Assembly (NCBI RefSeq): GCF_009659535.1
Contig: NZ_VJZZ01000002.1
Span: forward strand, 124,001 to 188,000
Origin: Aggregicoccus sp. 17bor-14
GTDB lineage: Bacteria > Myxococcota > Myxococcia > Myxococcales > Myxococcaceae
Length of the DNA: 64,000 nucleotides
Direction: 5' to 3'
This document shows positions 9,674 to 36,454 of this stretch, one piece after another. Position numbers and translations under genes: made by a program. The notes below the pieces were generated by a model, which searched no databases, was not told where the DNA came from, and saw only the letters and a list, made by a program, of their open reading frames with translations. Positions within the stretch are counted from its first letter, which is position 1; each line of letters starts with the position of its first letter.

Positions 9674-9690
9674 CCCTCTCCCGCTGGGAG
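9674..9690. repeat. Left part of an IS-interrupted dispersed palindrome, including target duplication
   Basis: This 17-bp stretch (CCCTCTCCC followed by GCTGGGAG) is one arm of the dispersed palindromic repeat seen whole at 25420, 29421 and 30335. The other arm follows the insertion sequence at 11198. The last nine bases, CGCTGGGAG (9682-9690), are repeated exactly at 11198-11206 and form the target-site duplication. Confidence 0.85.
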
Positions 9691-9709
9691 CTGAGCATTG
9701 GTGGCATCT
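9691..9709. repeat. IS terminal inverted repeat, end nearest 9.7 kb
   Basis: CTGAGCATTGGTGGCATCT, 19 bp, overlapping the last base of the transposase stop codon. It pairs with 11179-11197 with 18 of 19 matches; the difference is the fifth base. Confidence 0.92.
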
Positions 9710-11175
9710 CAGCCCTTGATTTGCTCCTGGAAGCGGAGGGCTTCGGCGGTAGGGCCGAGTTGCTCGAGGCCGCGGCGCAGCACGACGGAGCCGGGTGGGC
9801 CGCCAGAGGACTTGCCGGTGTAGCCGCCCAGTTCGGCGAGCCAGCGCACCGCCTCGCCCAGGGTGGGCACGGAGCGCTGGGCGTACGCTTTCGCGTTGCG
9901 CGTGAGCAGAAAGAGGGCGCGCAATTCGTAGGGGCTGAATTCGGTGTCAGCTGGCGTGTCGGGGGCCTCGCGTGCGAGGCGTTTGAGTCGCTCGATGCGC
10001 ACGGCCACGCATAGCAGCATGAGGGCCCAGCACTCGAAAGCCCGCAGGTGCAGGGCGCTCGCCTCCACCTGGCACCCGGTGCGCTTCCAGGCGCGGTGCA
10101 CCTCCTCGACGCGCCAGCGCAGGGCGTAGCCGCGCACGACGGCGAGGGCGTCCTTCCAGCGCCGGACGGGCGTGTTGGTGAGCAGAAGCCAGTCGAGCGG
10201 CTCCTCACCCTGCGGGCAGGTGCCCTCCTCCCGCGCGTGCACCGCCCACGCCTGCACCGGCAGCGTGCGGCCTGTGCGCGGGCAGGTGAGGTGCAGCAGC
10301 ACGGAGCAGAAGCGCACCACCATGCGCGCGCGGCGCCCGTGGCGCTTCTCGGAGGGCAGCACGCGCAGGCGGTAGGGGCGGCGCGGGGCTTGGCGCAGCA
10401 GCACGTCCTCGAGGTGGCCCGGCTCGCCCTCGGGTCCCTCGCACAGGCGCGTGCGCTGGGCGCAGCGCACGGTGACGCGCGCGCCCTCGGCACTCCACGC
10501 CATCCACTCCAGCACCTCGCGCGCGTCCGCGCCCGCGTCCAGCTGCAGCCAGGGCGTGCCGGCAAAGCCCGAGGCCTGCCAGCTCTCCACCACGCTTTGC
10601 GCCACCTGCAGCCAGTACCGCGTTTCCTTGTCCTCGAGGGCCAGGCCGTCCGTGCGCGTGCCGCGCGGGCGGGGCGGTGCGCGGCGGCACCACAGCACGT
10701 GGCCCACCAGCCCCAGGGGCACCCCGCGCCCACTCAGCAGCGGCGCATTGAGTGTCTCGGCCCCCAGCACCCGCGCCCGCCCGTTGTCCACCCAGCCAAA
10801 GCCCTTCTTCCAACTCGCCTCAGGCAACGTCAGGGTGCTCTGGTCCAGGGGCACGTACACCAGCGGCGCCGCGCCTGCGCGCTTCCACGCTGCCCTCGCC
10901 GCCGCCTCCCGCAGCGCGCCCGGCGAAACGTCCGGCGACTCCACGAAGTCGTAGCCCGCCTGGCGCGCGGCCGCATCGCGCAGCGCTACCGTCAGCTTGC
11001 CGTGGGGCCGCGTCGCGGCCGCCGCCCCCAGCTGCACCCCGCGCTCCGTGCGCCGCTTGTCCCCAAGCACCGCGCTGCCAAACTCCTGCCTCGCCCACGC
11101 CAGACTGCCTGCCGCCTGCGTCCTCTGAGTCGCCCGTCGCATCCCTGCACGACAGGCGAGCGGCACCCGGTTCAT
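9709..11175 (-). CDS. Tn5-like DDE transposase
   Basis: A 488-residue transposase. Residues about 25-82 match the Tn5 DNA-binding domain (WARQEFGSAVLGDKRR then AGYDFVESPDVS). The catalytic acids are Asp111 in PLDQST, Asp213 in QLDAGAD and Glu357. The YREK signature is exact in spacing: Y350, R353, E357, K364, as in Tn5 (Y319, R322, E326, K333). No frameshift or stop interrupts it. The ATG at 11175 is preferred over a TTG at 11190 that would sit inside the terminal repeat. The stop TGA touches the opposite inverted repeat, so the gene fills the element. Confidence 0.93.
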   Translation of the reverse strand: MNRVPLACRAGMRRATQRTQAAGSLAWARQEFGSAVLGDKRRTERGVQLGAAAATRPHGKLTVALRDAAARQAGYDFVESPDVSPGALREAAARAAWKRAGAAPLVYVPLDQSTLTLPEASWKKGFGWVDNGRARVLGAETLNAPLLSGRGVPLGLVGHVLWCRRAPPRPRGTRTDGLALEDKETRYWLQVAQSVVESWQASGFAGTPWLQLDAGADAREVLEWMAWSAEGARVTVRCAQRTRLCEGPEGEPGHLEDVLLRQAPRRPYRLRVLPSEKRHGRRARMVVRFCSVLLHLTCPRTGRTLPVQAWAVHAREEGTCPQGEEPLDWLLLTNTPVRRWKDALAVVRGYALRWRVEEVHRAWKRTGCQVEASALHLRAFECWALMLLCVAVRIERLKRLAREAPDTPADTEFSPYELRALFLLTRNAKAYAQRSVPTLGEAVRWLAELGGYTGKSSGGPPGSVVLRRGLEQLGPTAEALRFQEQIKG

Positions 11176-11178
11176 CCC

Positions 11179-11197
11179 AGATGCCACCAATGGTCAG
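11179..11197. repeat. IS terminal inverted repeat, end nearest 11.2 kb
   Basis: Read on the minus strand this is CTGACCATTGGTGGCATCT, 19 bp, matching the opposite end at 18 of 19 positions. Confidence 0.92.
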
Positions 11198-11222
11198 CGC
11201 TGGGAGAGGGCCGGGGTGAGGG
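11198..11222. repeat. Right part of the IS-interrupted dispersed palindrome
   Basis: Begins with the 9-bp target duplication CGCTGGGAG and continues AGAGGGCCGGGGTGAGGG. Joined to 9674-9681 it recreates a full copy of the palindromic repeat family found at 25420, 29421 and 30335. Confidence 0.85.
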
Positions 11223-12349: not shown

Positions 12350-12590
12350 GGTGTGCATGGCGAGCGCGAAGTTCGCGCACGTCGAGACCCGACCGGCCTC
12401 GCGCGACGGAGAGCTCCGTGCGGCCATTGAGCCGCACGCGCGTCCGCGCAGCCGTCGAGCAGCTCGCTCACCCAGTCAAGGTTCACCCGCATGGCGCGGT
12501 GGATGCGCAGCCAGTGGGCAGGGTCCAGCTTTCGCTCCAGCTCCGCGAGCGGGAGGTCGACCGCCAGGCGGCGAAGGAGACGGCTGCGCA
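12350..12590 (-). pseudogene. Decayed LytTR response-regulator fragment
   Basis: Read on the minus strand, about 12588-12436 encodes LPLAELERKLDPAHWLRIHRA, MRVNLDWVSELLDGCADAR, closely matching the LytTR DNA-binding domain of the intact regulator at 21311-22069 (PSLAELERRLDPARWVRIHRA, TLVNLDWVSELLGGYADAR). The frame then shifts and the match continues in another frame as VRLNGRTELSVARGRS against VRLRDGTELSVARDRF. The break fits loss of two bases in a CGCGCG run near 12437. The receiver domain is absent. This is a truncated, frameshifted paralogue. Confidence 0.8.
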
Positions 12591-12613: not shown

Positions 12614-15600
12614 TCAGGACACGGCGTCGTGCGAGCGGTCGGTGCGACGAGGACGGGCCGCGCGCAGGAGCGTCGCGAGCGCCAGGAGCAGGCCGGGCAG
12701 AGCGAGCCCGCCCGGCACGGCCGTGCAGCCGCCCGTAGGCGGCGTGCCGGCGGCGGTCCCTTCGGTGATGACCACCTTGAACTCACACTGAGCTGTGCGC
12801 CCCTGTGCATCCGTCGCGCTCGCCCGCACGCGCGTCGTGCCTACCGGGAAGGTGCCCGAGGGCGGAGCGTAGGTAATGGGCGCCGCTGCACCGGTCGCGG
12901 CGGCTCCGGAGAGGTCTACCCAAGCCCCCTCGGGCGAGCTCGCCTCGCGCTCCACCGCGTCCACGCAGGTGAGCTCGAGCGCTGGCGCGGCGGGCAGGGA
13001 GGTGTCGCGCACGGTGACGGCGAACTCGCAGGTGCTCGCGTTGCCGCTCGCATCCAGGGCGCGCGCCTGCACCCGCGTGGTGCCGAGCGGCAGCGCCTGC
13101 TCCAGATCGGGGCTGTAGCGGATGAGCGGCAGCGGGTCGTGGTCATCCACGGCGGTGGCGGGCGCGTTGGGCACGCGCAGGCCGGTGATTCCCTTCCCCT
13201 CCAGCACCAGCTCCACCGGGCAGCGCAGCGCGGGAGGCTGCGTGTCGGGGACGGCAGCGCGCAGCGGCAACGCCCAGAGTTCCTGTCCGCTGCGGCGGTC
13301 GTCGGCGGCGAAGAAGAGGAAGCGTCCGGCGCGGCCCATCGCGCGCGGGTCCGAGGAGGCGAAGCCCGGTGCCACGTCCCCGACGAGCCGGGTGCCCGCG
13401 GGCGTGCCGTCCGTCAGCCACAGCTCACGTCCGTGCTGCGCGTCCGCTGCGGCAAAGGCGAGGAGACCTTCCTCGGGGAGCAGCAGCGAGTACGGTCGCC
13501 AGTCGACGCCCGGCGGCGAGCCCGGCGCGAGGTCCACGAGGCGCCGCGTGCCCGCGGCCGTCCCGTCGCTCGTCCACAGCTCCCGACCGGCGGCGTCCTC
13601 CGCGCTGAGCAGCATCCGCTCTCCGAGCGCGCCCAGCAGCTGGGGGTCGAGGCGGGGTGTGCCGACCCGGTGCGTTCCCTCCTGCGTACCGTCGCTTGCG
13701 CACAGCTCGCCGTTGCAGTTGTAGAGGAGCCGGTCTCCCAGCGCGCGCAGCGAGTACAGACCGCTGATATTGTCGCCCTGCATCCCGGGGGGCGTCAGCA
13801 GACGGGTACCGGCCGACGTTCCGTCGGTGGCGAAGAGCTCGCGGCCGCCCAGGGAGGCGAGGTGCCCGGCGACGAAGAAGACGGTCTGCCCCACGCGTGT
13901 GAGCTCGCGGGTGGAGTCCAGGCAGGACGCTGCGCAGGGGCGTACGAGCGGCTCGGGCGGGGCGAGCGGCTCCTCGCTCGCCCAGAGCTCGAGGGTGTTC
14001 GTCTCGGAGTTGCGCTGGTAGAGCAGCCGCGAGCCCAGCGTGACGAGCTCGCCGCCTCCGTCCGAGACGAGGGTGAGCTTCCCGGTCGCCGGGTCGAACA
14101 CCTTCATGCCGTCGGAGTCCCCCAGGTACAGCCGCCCCTCGTGCACGTGCGTCACCGTGGGCGGGGTCTCCGGCGGAAGGTCTACGCGGCTGTACTGATG
14201 GAGCACGGCAACGCGCTCCGTTCCGAAGGAGGTGCCATCCGTGCGCCACAGCGCATCGGGTCCCGAGGCGGCGCTCGCGACGAAGTAGAGCCAGTTGCCG
14301 AGCACCTGGAAGCCGTGCGGACGCGAGCTCTCGGGGCCGCGCACGAGGTCGACCACGCGCACCGTGCCGTCCGCGCGGCCGTTGCTGCGCCACAGCTCGC
14401 GGCCTCCCTCGGCATCCTTCGCTGTGAAGAAGAGCGTGCCGCGAAACTCCGTGAAGTCCGTGGGGCTCGAGTCGTTGAGGTCGGGCGCGAGGTCGCGCAC
14501 GGGCCGGGTGCCGGCCACCGTGCCGTCCGTGCGCCACAGCTCACGCCCACTGTCCGGGGTGAGGGCCGCGAAGAGCACCTGCGTGTCGTGGACGTGGAGC
14601 TCGCCCACGGGCGAGGCATCCGGCCACGTCGCGGAGGGCAGCAGCCGCTCCGTGCCAGCGGCCGTGCCATCCGTGCGCCACAGCTCCTGTTGCAGCGCTG
14701 CATCGTACGCGACGAAGTAGAGGTGTGGCCCCAGCGCCACCATCCGCGGCGAGTCCGGGTACTGCAGCGCGGGCGCCTGGACCCGTACGCGCCGGGTGCC
14801 GGCCGCTGTGCCGTCCGTGCAGTACAGCGCCCGCCGCCACTCGCCATCGACCTGGTCGTCCGCGGTGAAGCAGAGCATGGAGCCCAGCACGGTGAAGGAC
14901 TTTGGCGCGAAGCCCGAGAACCCGGGGACGAGGTCCACCAGGCGCCGGGTGCCCGACCCCGTCCCATCGCTCACCCACAGCTCGCTCCGGCCCTCTGCGC
15001 TGGAGGACGCGTAGTAGAGCCGGTCCCCGAGCACCTGCAGCGGGTAGCCACCGGTGGGCGCCACCCGCACGGTGCCCTCGGCCGTGCCGTCGGTGCGCCA
15101 GAGCTCCCCGCCCTCCGTGCCCCACGCGACGAAGTACACCCGGCCGCCCAGTGCGGTGAACAGCCTCGGGTCGCTGCCGTCCAGCACGGTGCCGGGCCGT
15201 AGGTCCTTCACCAGCCAGGTGCCGGCGGCCGTCCCGTCGCTGCGCCACAGCTCGCGGCCATGCAGCCCGTCATCCGCCGAGAAGTAGAGCACGCCGCCGA
15301 TGGCAGTCAGCCCCTCGGGCCGCGAGCCGCGCGAGTCCGGCTGGATGTCGAAGACGCGGCGGGTGCCCTCGGGCGTCCCATCGCTGCGCCACAGCTCGAT
15401 GTCGTCCTCGTAGCCGTAGGGCCCGCTCGGGGCCGCGGCGAAGTAGAGCACCCCGCCCATCTCCGTGAGCCCGGTGGTGCGCGGGTTGAGGGCGGCCGGG
15501 CTCAGGCTCCGGGTGAGCATCACCGTTCCCTCTGCCGTGCCGTCCGTGCGCCAGAGCTGCGAGGCGAAGGTGCCGTCGTGGGCGACGAAGTACAGCGTGC

Positions 15601-15964
15601 CGCGCACGTCCGTGAGCTGCTCGGGCTCTGAGCCACGCGGCCCCGGAAAGAGGTCGCGCACCATCCAGGTGCCGGCGTCGGTGTCGTCCGTGCGCCACAG
15701 CTCGCGGCCCGCCGAGCCGTCGTCCGCCGTGAAGTAGGTGACGCCGCCTGAGCGCGTGAGCGAGGCGGGTTCGGAGCCGGGCGCCATCCCCAGGGTGCGG
15801 TGCACGAACTTCTCCGTGTGGATGTCCAGGACCTGAAAGGGGGCGGCGGAGACGGTGAGCGCGGCCGCATGACGGACGACGGGCTCCTGCGGCGTGCATC
15901 CCGCGAGCGCCCAGAGCAGGCCGCTGCAGGTCCAGGCCGCGGCCATGGAGAAAGACCGGTGCAT
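12614..15964 (-). CDS. Giant ELWxxDGTxxGT-repeat lipoprotein with HYR domain and MYXO-CTERM-like tail
   Basis: A 1116-residue surface protein. The signal peptide ends in the lipobox LWALAGC. From about residue 70 to 870 it is built from repeats carrying ELWRTDGTAEGT-type motifs alternating with GGVLYFSADDG-type strands, the ELWxxDGT repeat known mostly from myxobacteria and thought to form a propeller-like fold. Two HYR/Ig-like modules follow (for example LPLGTTRVQARALDASGN). The end has GGC, a hydrophobic helix and RPRR, a MYXO-CTERM-like sorting tail. A role at the cell surface is inferred. The decayed regulator lies just downstream. Confidence 0.9.
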   Translation of the reverse strand: MHRSFSMAAAWTCSGLLWALAGCTPQEPVVRHAAALTVSAAPFQVLDIHTEKFVHRTLGMAPGSEPASLTRSGGVTYFTADDGSAGRELWRTDDTDAGTWMVRDLFPGPRGSEPEQLTDVRGTLYFVAHDGTFASQLWRTDGTAEGTVMLTRSLSPAALNPRTTGLTEMGGVLYFAAAPSGPYGYEDDIELWRSDGTPEGTRRVFDIQPDSRGSRPEGLTAIGGVLYFSADDGLHGRELWRSDGTAAGTWLVKDLRPGTVLDGSDPRLFTALGGRVYFVAWGTEGGELWRTDGTAEGTVRVAPTGGYPLQVLGDRLYYASSSAEGRSELWVSDGTGSGTRRLVDLVPGFSGFAPKSFTVLGSMLCFTADDQVDGEWRRALYCTDGTAAGTRRVRVQAPALQYPDSPRMVALGPHLYFVAYDAALQQELWRTDGTAAGTERLLPSATWPDASPVGELHVHDTQVLFAALTPDSGRELWRTDGTVAGTRPVRDLAPDLNDSSPTDFTEFRGTLFFTAKDAEGGRELWRSNGRADGTVRVVDLVRGPESSRPHGFQVLGNWLYFVASAASGPDALWRTDGTSFGTERVAVLHQYSRVDLPPETPPTVTHVHEGRLYLGDSDGMKVFDPATGKLTLVSDGGGELVTLGSRLLYQRNSETNTLELWASEEPLAPPEPLVRPCAASCLDSTRELTRVGQTVFFVAGHLASLGGRELFATDGTSAGTRLLTPPGMQGDNISGLYSLRALGDRLLYNCNGELCASDGTQEGTHRVGTPRLDPQLLGALGERMLLSAEDAAGRELWTSDGTAAGTRRLVDLAPGSPPGVDWRPYSLLLPEEGLLAFAAADAQHGRELWLTDGTPAGTRLVGDVAPGFASSDPRAMGRAGRFLFFAADDRRSGQELWALPLRAAVPDTQPPALRCPVELVLEGKGITGLRVPNAPATAVDDHDPLPLIRYSPDLEQALPLGTTRVQARALDASGNASTCEFAVTVRDTSLPAAPALELTCVDAVEREASSPEGAWVDLSGAAATGAAAPITYAPPSGTFPVGTTRVRASATDAQGRTAQCEFKVVITEGTAAGTPPTGGCTAVPGGLALPGLLLALATLLRAARPRRTDRSHDAVS

Positions 15965-21310: not shown

Positions 21311-22069
21311 TCAGAGCCCGAGCCGCTCGCTCAGGTGGCGGAAGCGGTCGCGCGCGACGGAGAGCTCCGTGCCGTCCCTCAGCCGCACGCGCGCATCCGC
21401 GTAGCCGCCGAGCAGCTCGCTCACCCAGTCCAGGTTCACCAGCGTCGCGCGGTGGATGCGCACCCAGCGTGCGGGGTCCAGGCGGCGCTCCAGCTCCGCG
21501 AGCGAGGGGTCCACGACCAGGCTCTTGCCTCCGCAGGCCGCGTAGGTGAGCCGGTCCTCGGCGTACAGGTGCGTCACCTGCGAGAGCTCGAGCACGCGCA
21601 CCCGTGCGCCCATGCGGGAGGCGAGCCGGGTGAGCGGCTCCGGCGGCCGCAGGGCCTGGGTGAGCGCCTGCAGCGCCTCGGCCGGGAGCGCCGCGCCTGC
21701 GGGGTAGAGGCGCTGCAGCTTGTCCAGCGCGCGCTCGAGCCGCCGCGCCTCCACGGGCTTGAGCAGGTAGTCCACCGAGCTCACCTCGAAGGCCTGCAGC
21801 GCGTAGGCATCGAAGGCGGTGGTGAAGATGACGGGCGGGCAGGGGGAGAGCGCCTGCGCGAGCTCGAGCCCGCTCATGCCGGGCATCTGCACGTCGAGGA
21901 AGAGCACGTCACACGGCGCGCCCGAGCGCAGCGCCGCGAGCGCCTCCTGCGGATCCGTGTGCTGCGCCACCACCTGCACGCGCCCCGTCTCCGCGAGCTG
22001 CCGCGCGAGCCTGCGCAGCGCGAGCGGCTCGTCGTCCACCAGCACCGCTCGCAGCAGGGGCGCCGTCAC
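21311..22069 (-). CDS. LytTR-family response regulator
   Basis: A 252-residue regulator. The receiver domain carries the acidic pocket VDDEPL, the phospho-acceptor Asp in LFLDVQMPGMSG and the conserved lysine in LLKPVEARRL. A LytTR DNA-binding domain follows (VRIHRATLVNLDWVSELLGG, then DGTELSVARDRF). Its ATG overlaps the stop of the upstream kinase gene (ATGA), so it is the cognate partner. A truncated, frameshifted relative of its C-terminal domain lies at 12350-12590. Confidence 0.93.
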   Translation of the reverse strand: MTAPLLRAVLVDDEPLALRRLARQLAETGRVQVVAQHTDPQEALAALRSGAPCDVLFLDVQMPGMSGLELAQALSPCPPVIFTTAFDAYALQAFEVSSVDYLLKPVEARRLERALDKLQRLYPAGAALPAEALQALTQALRPPEPLTRLASRMGARVRVLELSQVTHLYAEDRLTYAACGGKSLVVDPSLAELERRLDPARWVRIHRATLVNLDWVSELLGGYADARVRLRDGTELSVARDRFRHLSERLGL

Positions 22070-25419: not shown

Positions 25420-25452
25420 CCCTCACCCCGACCCTCTCCCAGAGGGAGAGGG
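25420..25452. repeat. Dispersed palindromic repeat, copy 2
   Basis: A 33-bp imperfect palindrome reading CCCTCACCCCG, ACCCTCTCCC, AGAGGGAGAGGG. It belongs to the same family as the repeats at 9674/11198, 29421 and 30335. It lies between two minus-strand genes, so it could act as a transcript-end or REP-like hairpin; this is not shown. Confidence 0.85.
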
Positions 25453-29420: not shown

Positions 29421-29454
29421 CCCCTCTCCCTCTGGGGAAGGGTCAGGGTGAGGG
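29421..29454. repeat. Dispersed palindromic repeat, copy 3
   Basis: Runs CCCCTCTCCC, TCTGGGGAAG, GGTCAGGGTGAGGG on the plus strand, the inverse orientation of the copy at 25420. On the minus strand it contributes the codons for the last residues (NPSP) and the TGA stop of the CPBP protease gene that ends at 29443. Confidence 0.85.
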
Positions 29455-30334: not shown

Positions 30335-30367
30335 CCCTCACCCCGACCCTCTCCCAAAGGGAGAGGG
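30335..30367. repeat. Dispersed palindromic repeat, copy 4
   Basis: A 33-bp copy reading CCCTCACCCCG, ACCCTCTCCC, AAAGGGAGAGGG, in the same orientation as the copy at 25420. It lies between two minus-strand genes, 38 bp beyond the collagen-like gene's stop. Confidence 0.85.
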
Positions 30368-30405: not shown

Positions 30406-31308
30406 TCAGCGCAGCACGATCTCCAGCGCGGCGTTGTCCACCCGGCAGGTGCCCTCGGTGGAGTCGGCGGAGCGGGCCACCTGCAGCTGCGGCGTGTACT
30501 GGCCGCCGAACAGGCCCTCTCCCCGCATCGTGGAGAAGTAGAAGGGCTCCGCGTACTGGCCGTTCGCCGGCGCCGTCAGCGTCACCTGCTCCATGAGGTA
30601 CGGGGCGGCGTCGCCCAGCCACAGGCCGCAGGTCACCGGGCCGCCTCCCGGACGCGACACCCGCAGCTGCGCCGTGAGCAGCATGCGCGCCCGGTGCCCC
30701 TCCGCCGCCATGAAGGTGAAGCTCACGCCCGGCACCTCCACGAAGTACGCGGAGGTGCTGTACGCCGGGCTCGAGTACTGCTGCGCGAAGAAGGCCGGAT
30801 CGTGCGCCCCCGCAGGTCCCATCGGTCCCGCAGGCCCCTGGGGACCTGCCGGCCCCATCGGACCGGCGGGCCCCGTCGCACCGGTCGCTCCCGTCGCACC
30901 GGTTGCGCCCGTCGCTCCCGTCGCGCCGGTTGCACCCGTCGCACCGGTCGCCCCCGTCGCGCCCTTGGGGCCCGTCGCCCCCGCAGGCCCCATCGGTCCG
31001 GTGAGCCCCATCGGACCTGCCGGCCCCATCGGACCGGCGGGCCCCGTTGCCCCCGTGGCGCCCTGGGGGCCGGCCGCACCCGGCGCCCCCTGCGGCCCGG
31101 CGGGACCCTGCTCACCCGCGGGCCCCTGGGAACCCACTGCTCCTGCGGGACCCTGCGGACCCTGCGCTCCCGCCGGACCTTGAGGCCCGGCCAGCCCGGG
31201 CTCCCCCTGAGACTGCTCGGGATTCGTGGTCTGCGTGCCGTCGGCGCAGGCGCTCAGGGTGAGCAGCAGGAGCAGCGTGGGCATCGCGGTTCGGAGCGTG
31301 TGGCGCAT
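30406..31308 (-). CDS. Collagen-like lipoprotein
   Basis: A 300-residue exported protein. The signal peptide ends in the lipobox LTLSAC at residue 21, after which about 43 Gly-X-Y triplets run from residue 35 to 165, including nine GAT triplets in a row (codons within 30883-30963). A 135-residue non-collagen C-terminal domain follows ([17 protein letters not shown] and onward), probably the trimer-nucleating or adhesive head. The ATG at 31308 has a GGGGGA ribosome site. It is transcribed divergently from the ECF sigma gene, and its upstream region carries the same promoter motif on the minus strand. Confidence 0.92.
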
Positions 31309-34460: not shown

Positions 34461-35747
34461 ATGACGAAGCACCTGCACCTGTTCTCGCTGTTCCTGCTGT
34501 CCTTGCTCTTCGCGCTCGCGGGCTGTGGCGACCCGGTGGTGGACCCCGGCTACCGCGGCGAGTCGCTGCTCACCGTCACGGGGGAGATGCGCACCGCGCC
34601 GGGCTACCACGCGCAGGGCCCGCTGCACGTGGCGATGGTGTGGTTCCCCACGTCGGTCATCGAGAGCGGGGATGGCGCCGAGGTCCCGGACGCCTTCGCG
34701 ATGGTGGCCGAGGACGCGGCCATCGAGGGCAGCTTCCCGCTCACCTACCGGCTGGACGTGTTCCAGCCGCCGCCCCCCGAGGCGATGGGCGCGTGGGGAC
34801 AGGGCCTGCCGGGCCGGGGCGCCATCGGGCTGGTCATCGCGTACGAGGACCTCAACGGCAACGGCAAGCTGGACCGCATCCCGCGCAACGGCGCGCCGCA
34901 GGACCGCATCGTGGGCGCCTCCACGTACGAGCCCGGCCGCCCGTACATGGTCCTCTACACGGACACGGCGCAGCAGGGCGTGCCCGCGGGCTTCAGCATC
35001 GGCGCTGCGGACGAGAGCGGCGAGCCCGCGGTGCTGCCGGCGTCCACGAAGCTCTCCCTCACCCTCACCCCGGGCGGGGACCTGTACGACGCGCTGGTGT
35101 GCGAGGCGGGCTGGGTCACGTACCTGTTCATCCCCGTGTGCGGCCTCGGTGGGAACGGTGAGGAGCAGCCGCCTCTCTCGGACCTCAACGTGTCGGGCGA
35201 CGTGAAGCTGAACGGCGGCCACCTCGACGTGGACCTGCGGGCCTCCATCGACAACGGCACGGGCTTCGAGGAGCTGCACGACGCGACCCTGAAGCTGGGC
35301 GGCCGGGAGCTCCCCTTCGACGCCACGAGCGGCCACTACGTGCTGAGCGAGGACGCGAGCACGCTGCTCACCCTGGGGCAGAAGATTCGCCTCGAGGTGA
35401 GCGCGCGCGGCCAGAGCACCTTCCGCGACCTGCAGGTGCCCGGCGCCTTCGACATCACGGCGCCCGGCGAGGGCGCGCACGCCTCCAGCACCCAGCCGCT
35501 GGCGGTGCAGTGGACGCAGGCGGCGGGCGCGACGGGCTACTCCGTGGAGCTCGAGACGCCCAACGTCTTCAACAGCGGCCCCGCGGACGAGGGCGCGCTG
35601 TCGAAGACCTACGACGGGCTGCTCGGCGAGGGTGATGCCCGCGTTCGCGTCGCCGCCAGGGGAGGCGTGGTGTCGGGGGCGGTCTTCGAGTCCTTCCTGA
35701 TCGACGTGAGCGTGGTGAAGGAGCAGTCCTTCGTGCTGGACCCGTGA
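34461..35747 (+). CDS. Exported lipoprotein with EF-hand-like loop and Ig-like C-terminal domain
   Basis: A 428-residue protein with a GGAGGGGGA ribosome site and a signal peptide ending in LFALAGC, a lipobox. The N-terminal half includes DLNGNGKLDRI, an EF-hand-like calcium loop. The C-terminal 195 residues (from LNVSGDVKLNGG) form a beta-sandwich with paralogous similarity to the whole of the next protein, sharing the blocks SEDASTLL, VPGAFDITAP and IDVSVVKEQSFVLDP. A regulated surface protein is likely. It is preceded by an ECF promoter motif and leader hairpin. Confidence 0.82.
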   Translation: MTKHLHLFSLFLLSLLFALAGCGDPVVDPGYRGESLLTVTGEMRTAPGYHAQGPLHVAMVWFPTSVIESGDGAEVPDAFAMVAEDAAIEGSFPLTYRLDVFQPPPPEAMGAWGQGLPGRGAIGLVIAYEDLNGNGKLDRIPRNGAPQDRIVGASTYEPGRPYMVLYTDTAQQGVPAGFSIGAADESGEPAVLPASTKLSLTLTPGGDLYDALVCEAGWVTYLFIPVCGLGGNGEEQPPLSDLNVSGDVKLNGGHLDVDLRASIDNGTGFEELHDATLKLGGRELPFDATSGHYVLSEDASTLLTLGQKIRLEVSARGQSTFRDLQVPGAFDITAPGEGAHASSTQPLAVQWTQAAGATGYSVELETPNVFNSGPADEGALSKTYDGLLGEGDARVRVAARGGVVSGAVFESFLIDVSVVKEQSFVLDP

Positions 35748-35836: not shown

Positions 35837-36454
35837 ATGCCGAACCCCTTGCTGGCCCGTGAGCCCCTCCGTCCCCGGGCCTCGCTGCTCCCGCCCTGGC
35901 CCGAGCTGTGTGTGCGAGGCCACGTGACGCTGAAGGCCGGGCGCCTCACGGTCGAGCTGAGTGCCTCGCTCGGCGACGGGGCGCCTCCCGGCGAGCTGGA
36001 GCTCTCGCTCGACCGCCGCATCATCCCCTTCGAGCCCGCGAGTGCGCGCTACACGCTGTGCGAAGACGCGAGCACGCTGCTCGTGCCCGGCGGTACGGTT
36101 CGCCTCGCGGTGCGTGCCCGCAGCCGGTGCACCTTTTGTGAGCTGCGGGTCCCCGGCGCCTTCGACATCACCGCACCGGCGGAGGGCACGCGCCTGTCGA
36201 GCATCGAGCCGCTGCGCTTGCGGTGGTCGCCGTCGGAGAGCGCCGAGCGGTACGCCATCGAGCTCGAGACGGCCGGCAGCCGCTACGGCGCGCCGGCGCC
36301 AGACGGTGCGTGCTCGCAGACCTTCCAGTTCTTCAGCGCGCAGGGGCCCACCGTCGTGCGGGTCACCGCGAGCACCGGGCTCCTCCGCGGCGCCGATTCC
36401 ATCGCGGTCGACGTGAGCGTGGTGAAGGAGCGGTCCTTCGTGCTCGAGCCCTGA
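35837..36454 (+). CDS. Truncated paralogue of the 34461 lipoprotein, no signal peptide
   Basis: A 205-residue protein with GAAGGA upstream. It matches only the C-terminal beta-sandwich of the lipoprotein at 34461: CEDASTLLVPGG, VPGAFDITAPAEG and VDVSVVKERSFVLEP are plainly shared. It lacks the lipobox and the N-terminal calcium-loop domain, so it would stay in the cytoplasm unless exported by another route. It probably arose by a duplication that included the promoter and leader hairpin. Extra cysteines (RSRCTFCELRV) appear that are absent from the parent. Confidence 0.78.
   Translation: MPNPLLAREPLRPRASLLPPWPELCVRGHVTLKAGRLTVELSASLGDGAPPGELELSLDRRIIPFEPASARYTLCEDASTLLVPGGTVRLAVRARSRCTFCELRVPGAFDITAPAEGTRLSSIEPLRLRWSPSESAERYAIELETAGSRYGAPAPDGACSQTFQFFSAQGPTVVRVTASTGLLRGADSIAVDVSVVKERSFVLEP

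Follow-up and report, generated by a model that had tools for sequence, protein, structure and literature searches.

The insertion sequence examined here, within the 64,000-nucleotide stretch of DNA that was analysed (the window), is very probably an intact Tn5-like element whose transposase picks a dispersed, REP-like palindrome as its target. The element occupies a base-precise position in the palindrome that is shared with a close relative, and we infer its own preference from this one site and from its relatives. The original prediction had suggested that insertion into the palindromes may be targeted. The relatives support this suggestion: all 11 ends of a close relative in one genome (G027) and all seven copies of a more distant one in another (G104) lie in the palindrome, and a second Tn5-like element of the window's own genome (C18) lies in the same one. 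Tn5-like relatives and several unrelated elements hit this palindrome, which looks like a landing pad for them.

The element and its target palindrome

The element is a complete insertion sequence of the IS4 family, related to Tn5/IS50, and spans window positions 9691-11197 (1507 bp; Table 1). Of the 19 bases at each end (the right one read inward), 18 match, and the element lies between two perfect copies of its 9-bp target duplication, CGCTGGGAG; direct reading bore out the original prediction on both points. A single frame of 493 residues encodes the transposase, with Tn5-type DNA-binding, DDE and dimerisation domains. The Y(2)R(3)E(6)K motif of the IS4 family definition (PMC2266710) is present at Y355, R358, E362 and K369, which is the Tn5 YREK spacing that had been claimed, and the catalytic spacing, D116-101-D218-143-E362, is within the D(60~110)D(100~150)E of the family. 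Solved Tn5 transposases align with the protein (best E 6.7e-21) with all of these residues at the expected places, and the NCBIfam model transpos_IS4_3 assigns it to the IS4 family at 201.8 bits (cut-off 160). A transposase in a single frame and a duplication of about one helix turn (9 bp) are further traits of that family. Both the length and the duplication lie within the ranges of the IS50 subgroup (1350-1550 bp and 8-9 bp). The predicted IS50-like character holds at the family level, but both ends fit only 5 of the 7 positions of the published IS50-subgroup end consensus, CW------Y---CA-A--W- (positions 13-14 are GG, not CA); the element of G027 fits at 7 of 7.

Table 1. Features of the insertion and its target in the window
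Feature	Position	Strand
Left part of target palindrome (CCCTCTCCC GCT GGGAG), contains left duplication copy	9674..9690	+
Target duplication, left copy, CGCTGGGAG	9682..9690	+
Terminal inverted repeat, 3' side of transposase gene, CTGAGCATTGGTGGCATCT	9691..9709	+
Transposase gene, 493 aa, IS4 family/Tn5-like; Tnp_DNA_bind, DDE_Tnp_1, Dimer_Tnp_Tn5; D116, D218, E362, YREK	9709..11190	-
Terminal inverted repeat, 5' side of transposase gene, CTGACCATTGGTGGCATCT	11179..11197	-
Target duplication, right copy, CGCTGGGAG	11198..11206	+
Right target part: palindrome arm (..GGGAGAGGG) and 12-base tail CCGGGGTGAGGG	11198..11222	+
Intact palindrome family member with tail	25420..25452	-
Diverged palindrome family member	29422..29454	+
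Intact palindrome family member with tail	30335..30367	-

A count of other copies in the genome, proposed as a check, returned this copy alone: in the 6.92-Mb draft (38 contigs) the end pattern, with up to 3 mismatches, found just these two ends. It is reasonable to regard the insertion as recent, as had been claimed; the perfect duplication, the open frame and the intact target fit this reading, although they give no age. The 195 genomes of the phylum include none of the same genus, hence no empty orthologous site was seen.

Removal of the element regenerates a member of the palindrome family, as predicted. The joined flanks read CCCTCTCCCGCTGGGAGAGGGCCGGGGTGAGGG, a hairpin with a 9-bp stem and a 12-base tail, and the empty target is CCCTCTCCC-GCT-GGGAGAGGG followed by CCGGGGTGAGGG. 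This occupied copy, the one whose location relative to genes was examined, starts 6 bases 3' of the stop of a DUF1761 gene. The bare palindrome has 213 copies in the window's genome (up to 1 mismatch; reversed control, 0), and the palindrome with its tail has 208 (up to 2 mismatches; reversed pattern, 5). The target is thus short, dispersed, palindromic and present in many copies, traits that it has in common with REP sequences. Its 21-bp cores cover 0.065% of the window's genome and 0.065-0.10% of the genomes compared (the window's and those of relatives). Among the 100 exact-tail copies that were read, out of the 208, the partner arm is intact (up to 1 mismatch) in 90. In five of the other ten an IS end interrupts the palindrome (the window's copy and four at contig ends), and the remaining five are apparently diverged or truncated. 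One locus (L128) considered as a broken palindrome was rejected, as it is merely a truncated palindrome.

The window holds three further copies of the palindrome, one of them diverged. Across the phylum the distribution is patchy, with any copies at all in 52 of 195 genomes. Six genomes of a single genus (g8) have 342-661 copies apiece, another four (G003, G011, G107 and G109) have 181-346, and all the others have at most 25. Some genomes of the family have hundreds of copies and others have zero. A RAYT was rejected as the mobiliser of the palindrome, since the window's genome (G000), with ten small contigs read as N, gave 0 matches to Y1_Tnp (PF01797). The window also contains repeats of other kinds. 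A 1116-aa frame (12614-15964, minus strand) has repeated ELWRTDGT..GT units at a spacing of about 144 bases, and a 9-base repeat array lies at 30769-31146. Two 300-base stretches (35294-35593 and 36007-36306), 713 bases apart and 70% alike, are probably a duplicated gene, and two 133-base stretches (12437-12569 and 21390-21522), about 9 kb apart, are 85% alike.

Targets of related and unrelated insertion sequences

Because the window element has no other copies in its own genome, its preference was tested on relatives. The closest multi-copy relative is the element of G027, another genome of the family to which the window's belongs; it is 42% (N-terminal piece) and 53% (C-terminal piece) identical to the window protein, with ends CTGAGCATTAGYCACATTT. 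All 11 of its exact ends adjoin the palindrome with CTCCCNNNG or CNNNGGGAG. This is the register of the window element, whose duplication CGCTGGGAG is CNNNGGGAG. Five of the ends are from one side and six from the other, and therefore at least six insertions are represented. Next to the end that lies upstream of the gene, 4 of 5 cases read CTCCCNNNG, and next to the opposite end 5 of 6 read CNNNGGGAG; the window element is oriented likewise. The end search covered ten genomes and found exact ends in G027 only. Hits with 2 mismatches occurred in all ten and were dropped, because in several of these genomes they were about as frequent as hits of the reversed control.

Two further relatives use the same palindrome in registers of their own. 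The C18 element (L013), in the window's genome, is 42% identical and has one in-frame stop; its 9-bp duplication, GAGAGGGTC, is 6 bp along from that of the window element and spans one arm and the tail. The G104 element (32% identical) has seven copies, all at the exact centre of the palindrome, CCCNNNGGG. The chance of finding seven of seven in the palindrome is about 1e-14, even if just a tenth of the genome tolerated insertions. The duplications are perfect in six of these copies; the seventh (L054) has unlike flanks, as expected if copies had recombined with one another. Single elements in G105, G108 and G031 also lie in the palindrome or a close variant. In a tree of 22 transposases, in which many forks are weak, the window element and C18 are joined (100/99) and the centre-hitting elements of G104 and G105 are far apart. 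Use of the palindrome is thus either an ancient trait or one with more than one origin.

Some relatives are found at other sites. The elements of G055, G132 and G142 each occupy another hairpin (stems of 8, 6 and 7). The L009 element has its duplication on or near the centre of an unrelated hairpin, CCCAGCCT-TC-AGGCTGGG, L087 (the G142 relative) lies in CTGGAAG..CTTCCAG with an imperfect duplication, and L088 lies in CCCGTC-AGCC-GACGGG. The L087 palindrome was rejected as a large family, with 3 hits. In G017 (L006) there is only a weak, off-centre stem, and the site of two G057 copies (L005 and L014), whose ends are uncertain, is a hairpin-free GACCCCGACC tandem repeat. In 20,000 random draws a stem score of at least 6 arose in 13% (at least 9, in 0.7%), so these relatives are suggestive at best. 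The draws were taken from palindrome-rich loci, so the comparison is conservative.

No ends could be placed for L004, L011, L018, L019, L050/L099, L052, L083-L086, L090-L093 and L095-L098. The locus of a third DDE_Tnp_1 hit in the window's genome (L103), likewise without placed ends, contains no palindrome arm. A search of genome contigs for close relatives gave 17 pattern matches, with only 2 distant relatives, neither with resolvable ends, and every one of 491 plasmid records was below 60% identity.

Insertion sequences of other types in the same genomes provide controls. Of the hits in G104 to two transposase families, 43 are other than the IS50-like element; 32 of these were examined, and 11 (L213, L214, L229, L245 and L249-L255) were omitted for want of a second copy or an end pattern by which to place their ends. 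The 32 loci represent five IS types, and in none of their 34 flanks does a palindrome arm lie within about 13 bp of the junction. In the window's genome, contig termini are mostly assembler-collapsed repeats, and 48 of 76 were read (ten small contigs were N, and a few ends were unfetched or unclassified). When they are grouped into types by their end sequence, ends lie in the palindrome in 4 of 6 cases for type A, 7 of 7 for type B and 3 of 3 for type C, compared with 0 of 25 for types D, E, F, F2, G, H and I and 0 of 7 for seven unclassified repeat ends; at one end of type E, an uninterrupted palindrome starts 9 bases past the junction. The pooled Fisher value (3e-9) is descriptive only and overstates the difference, because types A-C were split from D-I after the result was seen. 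The weight is on the perfect or near-perfect scores within types. In types F and F2 (contig ends C2, C7, C14, C18, C19, C24 and C25), a shared TTCGTCCA or TTCCGTCCA precedes the point at which the flanks diverge.

Types A and B are multi-copy, and their duplications were deduced from reverse-complementary flanks, with about 127 bases of each end readable. The flanks imply an 11-bp duplication, CTCCCAGAGGG, for type A (contig ends C5, C6, C13 and C17) and a 5-bp duplication, TCTGG, for type B (C4, C7, C12, C13, C17 and C21). Type C belongs to the ISAs1 family by NCBIfam (L104, 261.7 bits; L105, 309.5 bits; cut-off 70), and the C16 contig end and L104 encode the same C-terminus. The two full-length type C copies, L104:1375-2602 (C16) and L105:1373-2593 (C5), have ends that match at 16 of 16 bases. 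They share with the window element the palindrome and a 9-bp duplication, which in their case is CCCTCTGGG at the exact centre (the dyad), but they are of another family and have unrelated ends. With the Tn5-like elements counted alongside types A, B and C, a single palindrome in this genome serves at least four kinds of element, with different staggers.

How the palindrome might be chosen

We postulate that a dimeric transposase would excise the element by the cut-and-paste route of Tn5 and would dock on the two-fold symmetric target CCCTCTCCCNNNGGGAGAGGG. The two ends would be joined with a 9-bp stagger, displaced by 2 bp from the dyad axis. Next to the end that lies upstream of the transposase gene the duplication would then read CTCCCNNNG, and next to the opposite end CNNNGGGAG. 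The target is probably recognized by the transposase itself, either as a duplex sequence or as a bent or extruded hairpin.

A single genome copy, in an element related to a transposon that is commonly described as weakly target-selective, might indicate only that a low-specificity element happened on a repeat. We find this scarcely credible. The nearest multi-copy relative has the same register at all 11 of its ends, a second element occupies the same palindrome in the same genome, and chance is unreasonable as an account of the position because the 21-bp cores are such a small part of the genome. It is also improbable, if somewhat less so, that the elements insert widely and that selection leaves survivors only in harmless intergenic repeats. 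In favor of this reading, the window insertion breaks no gene, and the palindrome does lie just past the DUF1761 stop. However, selection would not fix a base-exact register, and each element keeps one register, in G027 at 11 of 11 ends and in G104 at seven of seven copies; such constancy makes survival in safe places unlikely as the main cause. Insertion sequences of other types survive elsewhere, with none of 25 ends (G000) and none of 34 flanks (G104) in the palindrome. As these types share the genomes but not the site, no general bias toward intergenic palindromes suffices.

If, as we favor, the transposase itself selects the palindrome, it could do so by structure, accepting any extruded hairpin or any two-fold symmetric, bendable GC-rich site. 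The relatives in unrelated hairpins centered on or near the duplication (L009, L087 and L088) point in this direction, as does the folding of the single-stranded target into a 9-bp stem (-9.2 kcal/mol). Yet the fold only modestly beats shuffled sequences (z -1.4 to -2.8), a stem of 6-8 close to a randomly chosen point is no rarity (2-13% of the draws), the window and G027 registers are off-centre, and the C18 duplication covers one arm and the tail. We therefore consider recognition of structure doubtful, though far from negligible. A constant register cannot tell duplex reading from hairpin reading. Among lineages the register varies (0, 2 or 8 bp from the dyad), and therefore no single contact pattern fits all of them. 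We speculate, tentatively and with rather more doubt than conviction, that one REP-like palindrome is a shared pad for at least four kinds of insertion sequence, each with its own base-precise register, and that the common cue is the hairpin or its symmetry and not protein-specific reading of sequence.

Relation to known systems

Few DDE transposases have been studied as thoroughly as that of Tn5, whose nearly random insertion has made it a laboratory tool. A natural lineage with the Tn5 fold and base-precise specificity could reveal the residues that decide target choice. The use of one palindrome by several IS types is a natural test of whether hairpins attract transposases through structure or through sequence, and this sharing suggests that such repeats may shield genes against IS damage.

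The window element shares with IS50/Tn5 (IS4 family, IS50 subgroup) the Tn5-type N-terminal DNA-binding, DDE and C-terminal dimerisation domains, YREK, a 9-bp duplication, a length of about 1.5 kb and ends that begin CTGA, as Tn5's own ends do. It differs in that its lineage is tightly palindrome-specific and in the fit of its ends to the subgroup consensus (5 of 7 positions).

Association with REPs is known for members of the IS3, IS110, IS4, IS256 and IS5 families, according to the survey of Tobes and Pareja (2006, PMC1525189). In its type 1 of REP targeting, all copies lie at the same REP position; this was found at 11 of 11 ends in G027 and in seven of seven copies in G104, and the window contributes one copy. 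A literature search, with most subscription papers outside its scope, found no paper on palindrome targeting by IS50-type or ISAs1 elements and, among the papers listed, none on myxobacterial palindromic repeats with insertion sequences. Targeting of REP palindromes is thus already known, including in the IS4 family; a Tn5-like lineage with such precision and the use of one palindrome by several IS types look new.

The IS4-family case is ISRm22 of Sinorhizobium meliloti, for which all copies are reported within REP palindromes, at the axis of palindromy (PMC1525189). Like the window element, it is of the IS4 family and lies within a REP-type palindrome. Unlike it, ISRm22 is placed in subgroup IS4Sa, where its strong specificity was noted (De Palmenaer and co-workers 2008, PMC2266710), and it has 6-bp direct repeats and a different REP and host. 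ISPsy8 and IS1397 (both IS3 family) and ISPpu9/10, ISPa11 and IS621 (all IS110 family) are likewise described with every copy, or proven transposition, at a fixed point in dispersed palindromes (PMC1525189), but these elements are of other families, and their direct repeats of 0-3 bp differ from the 9-bp stagger of the window element.
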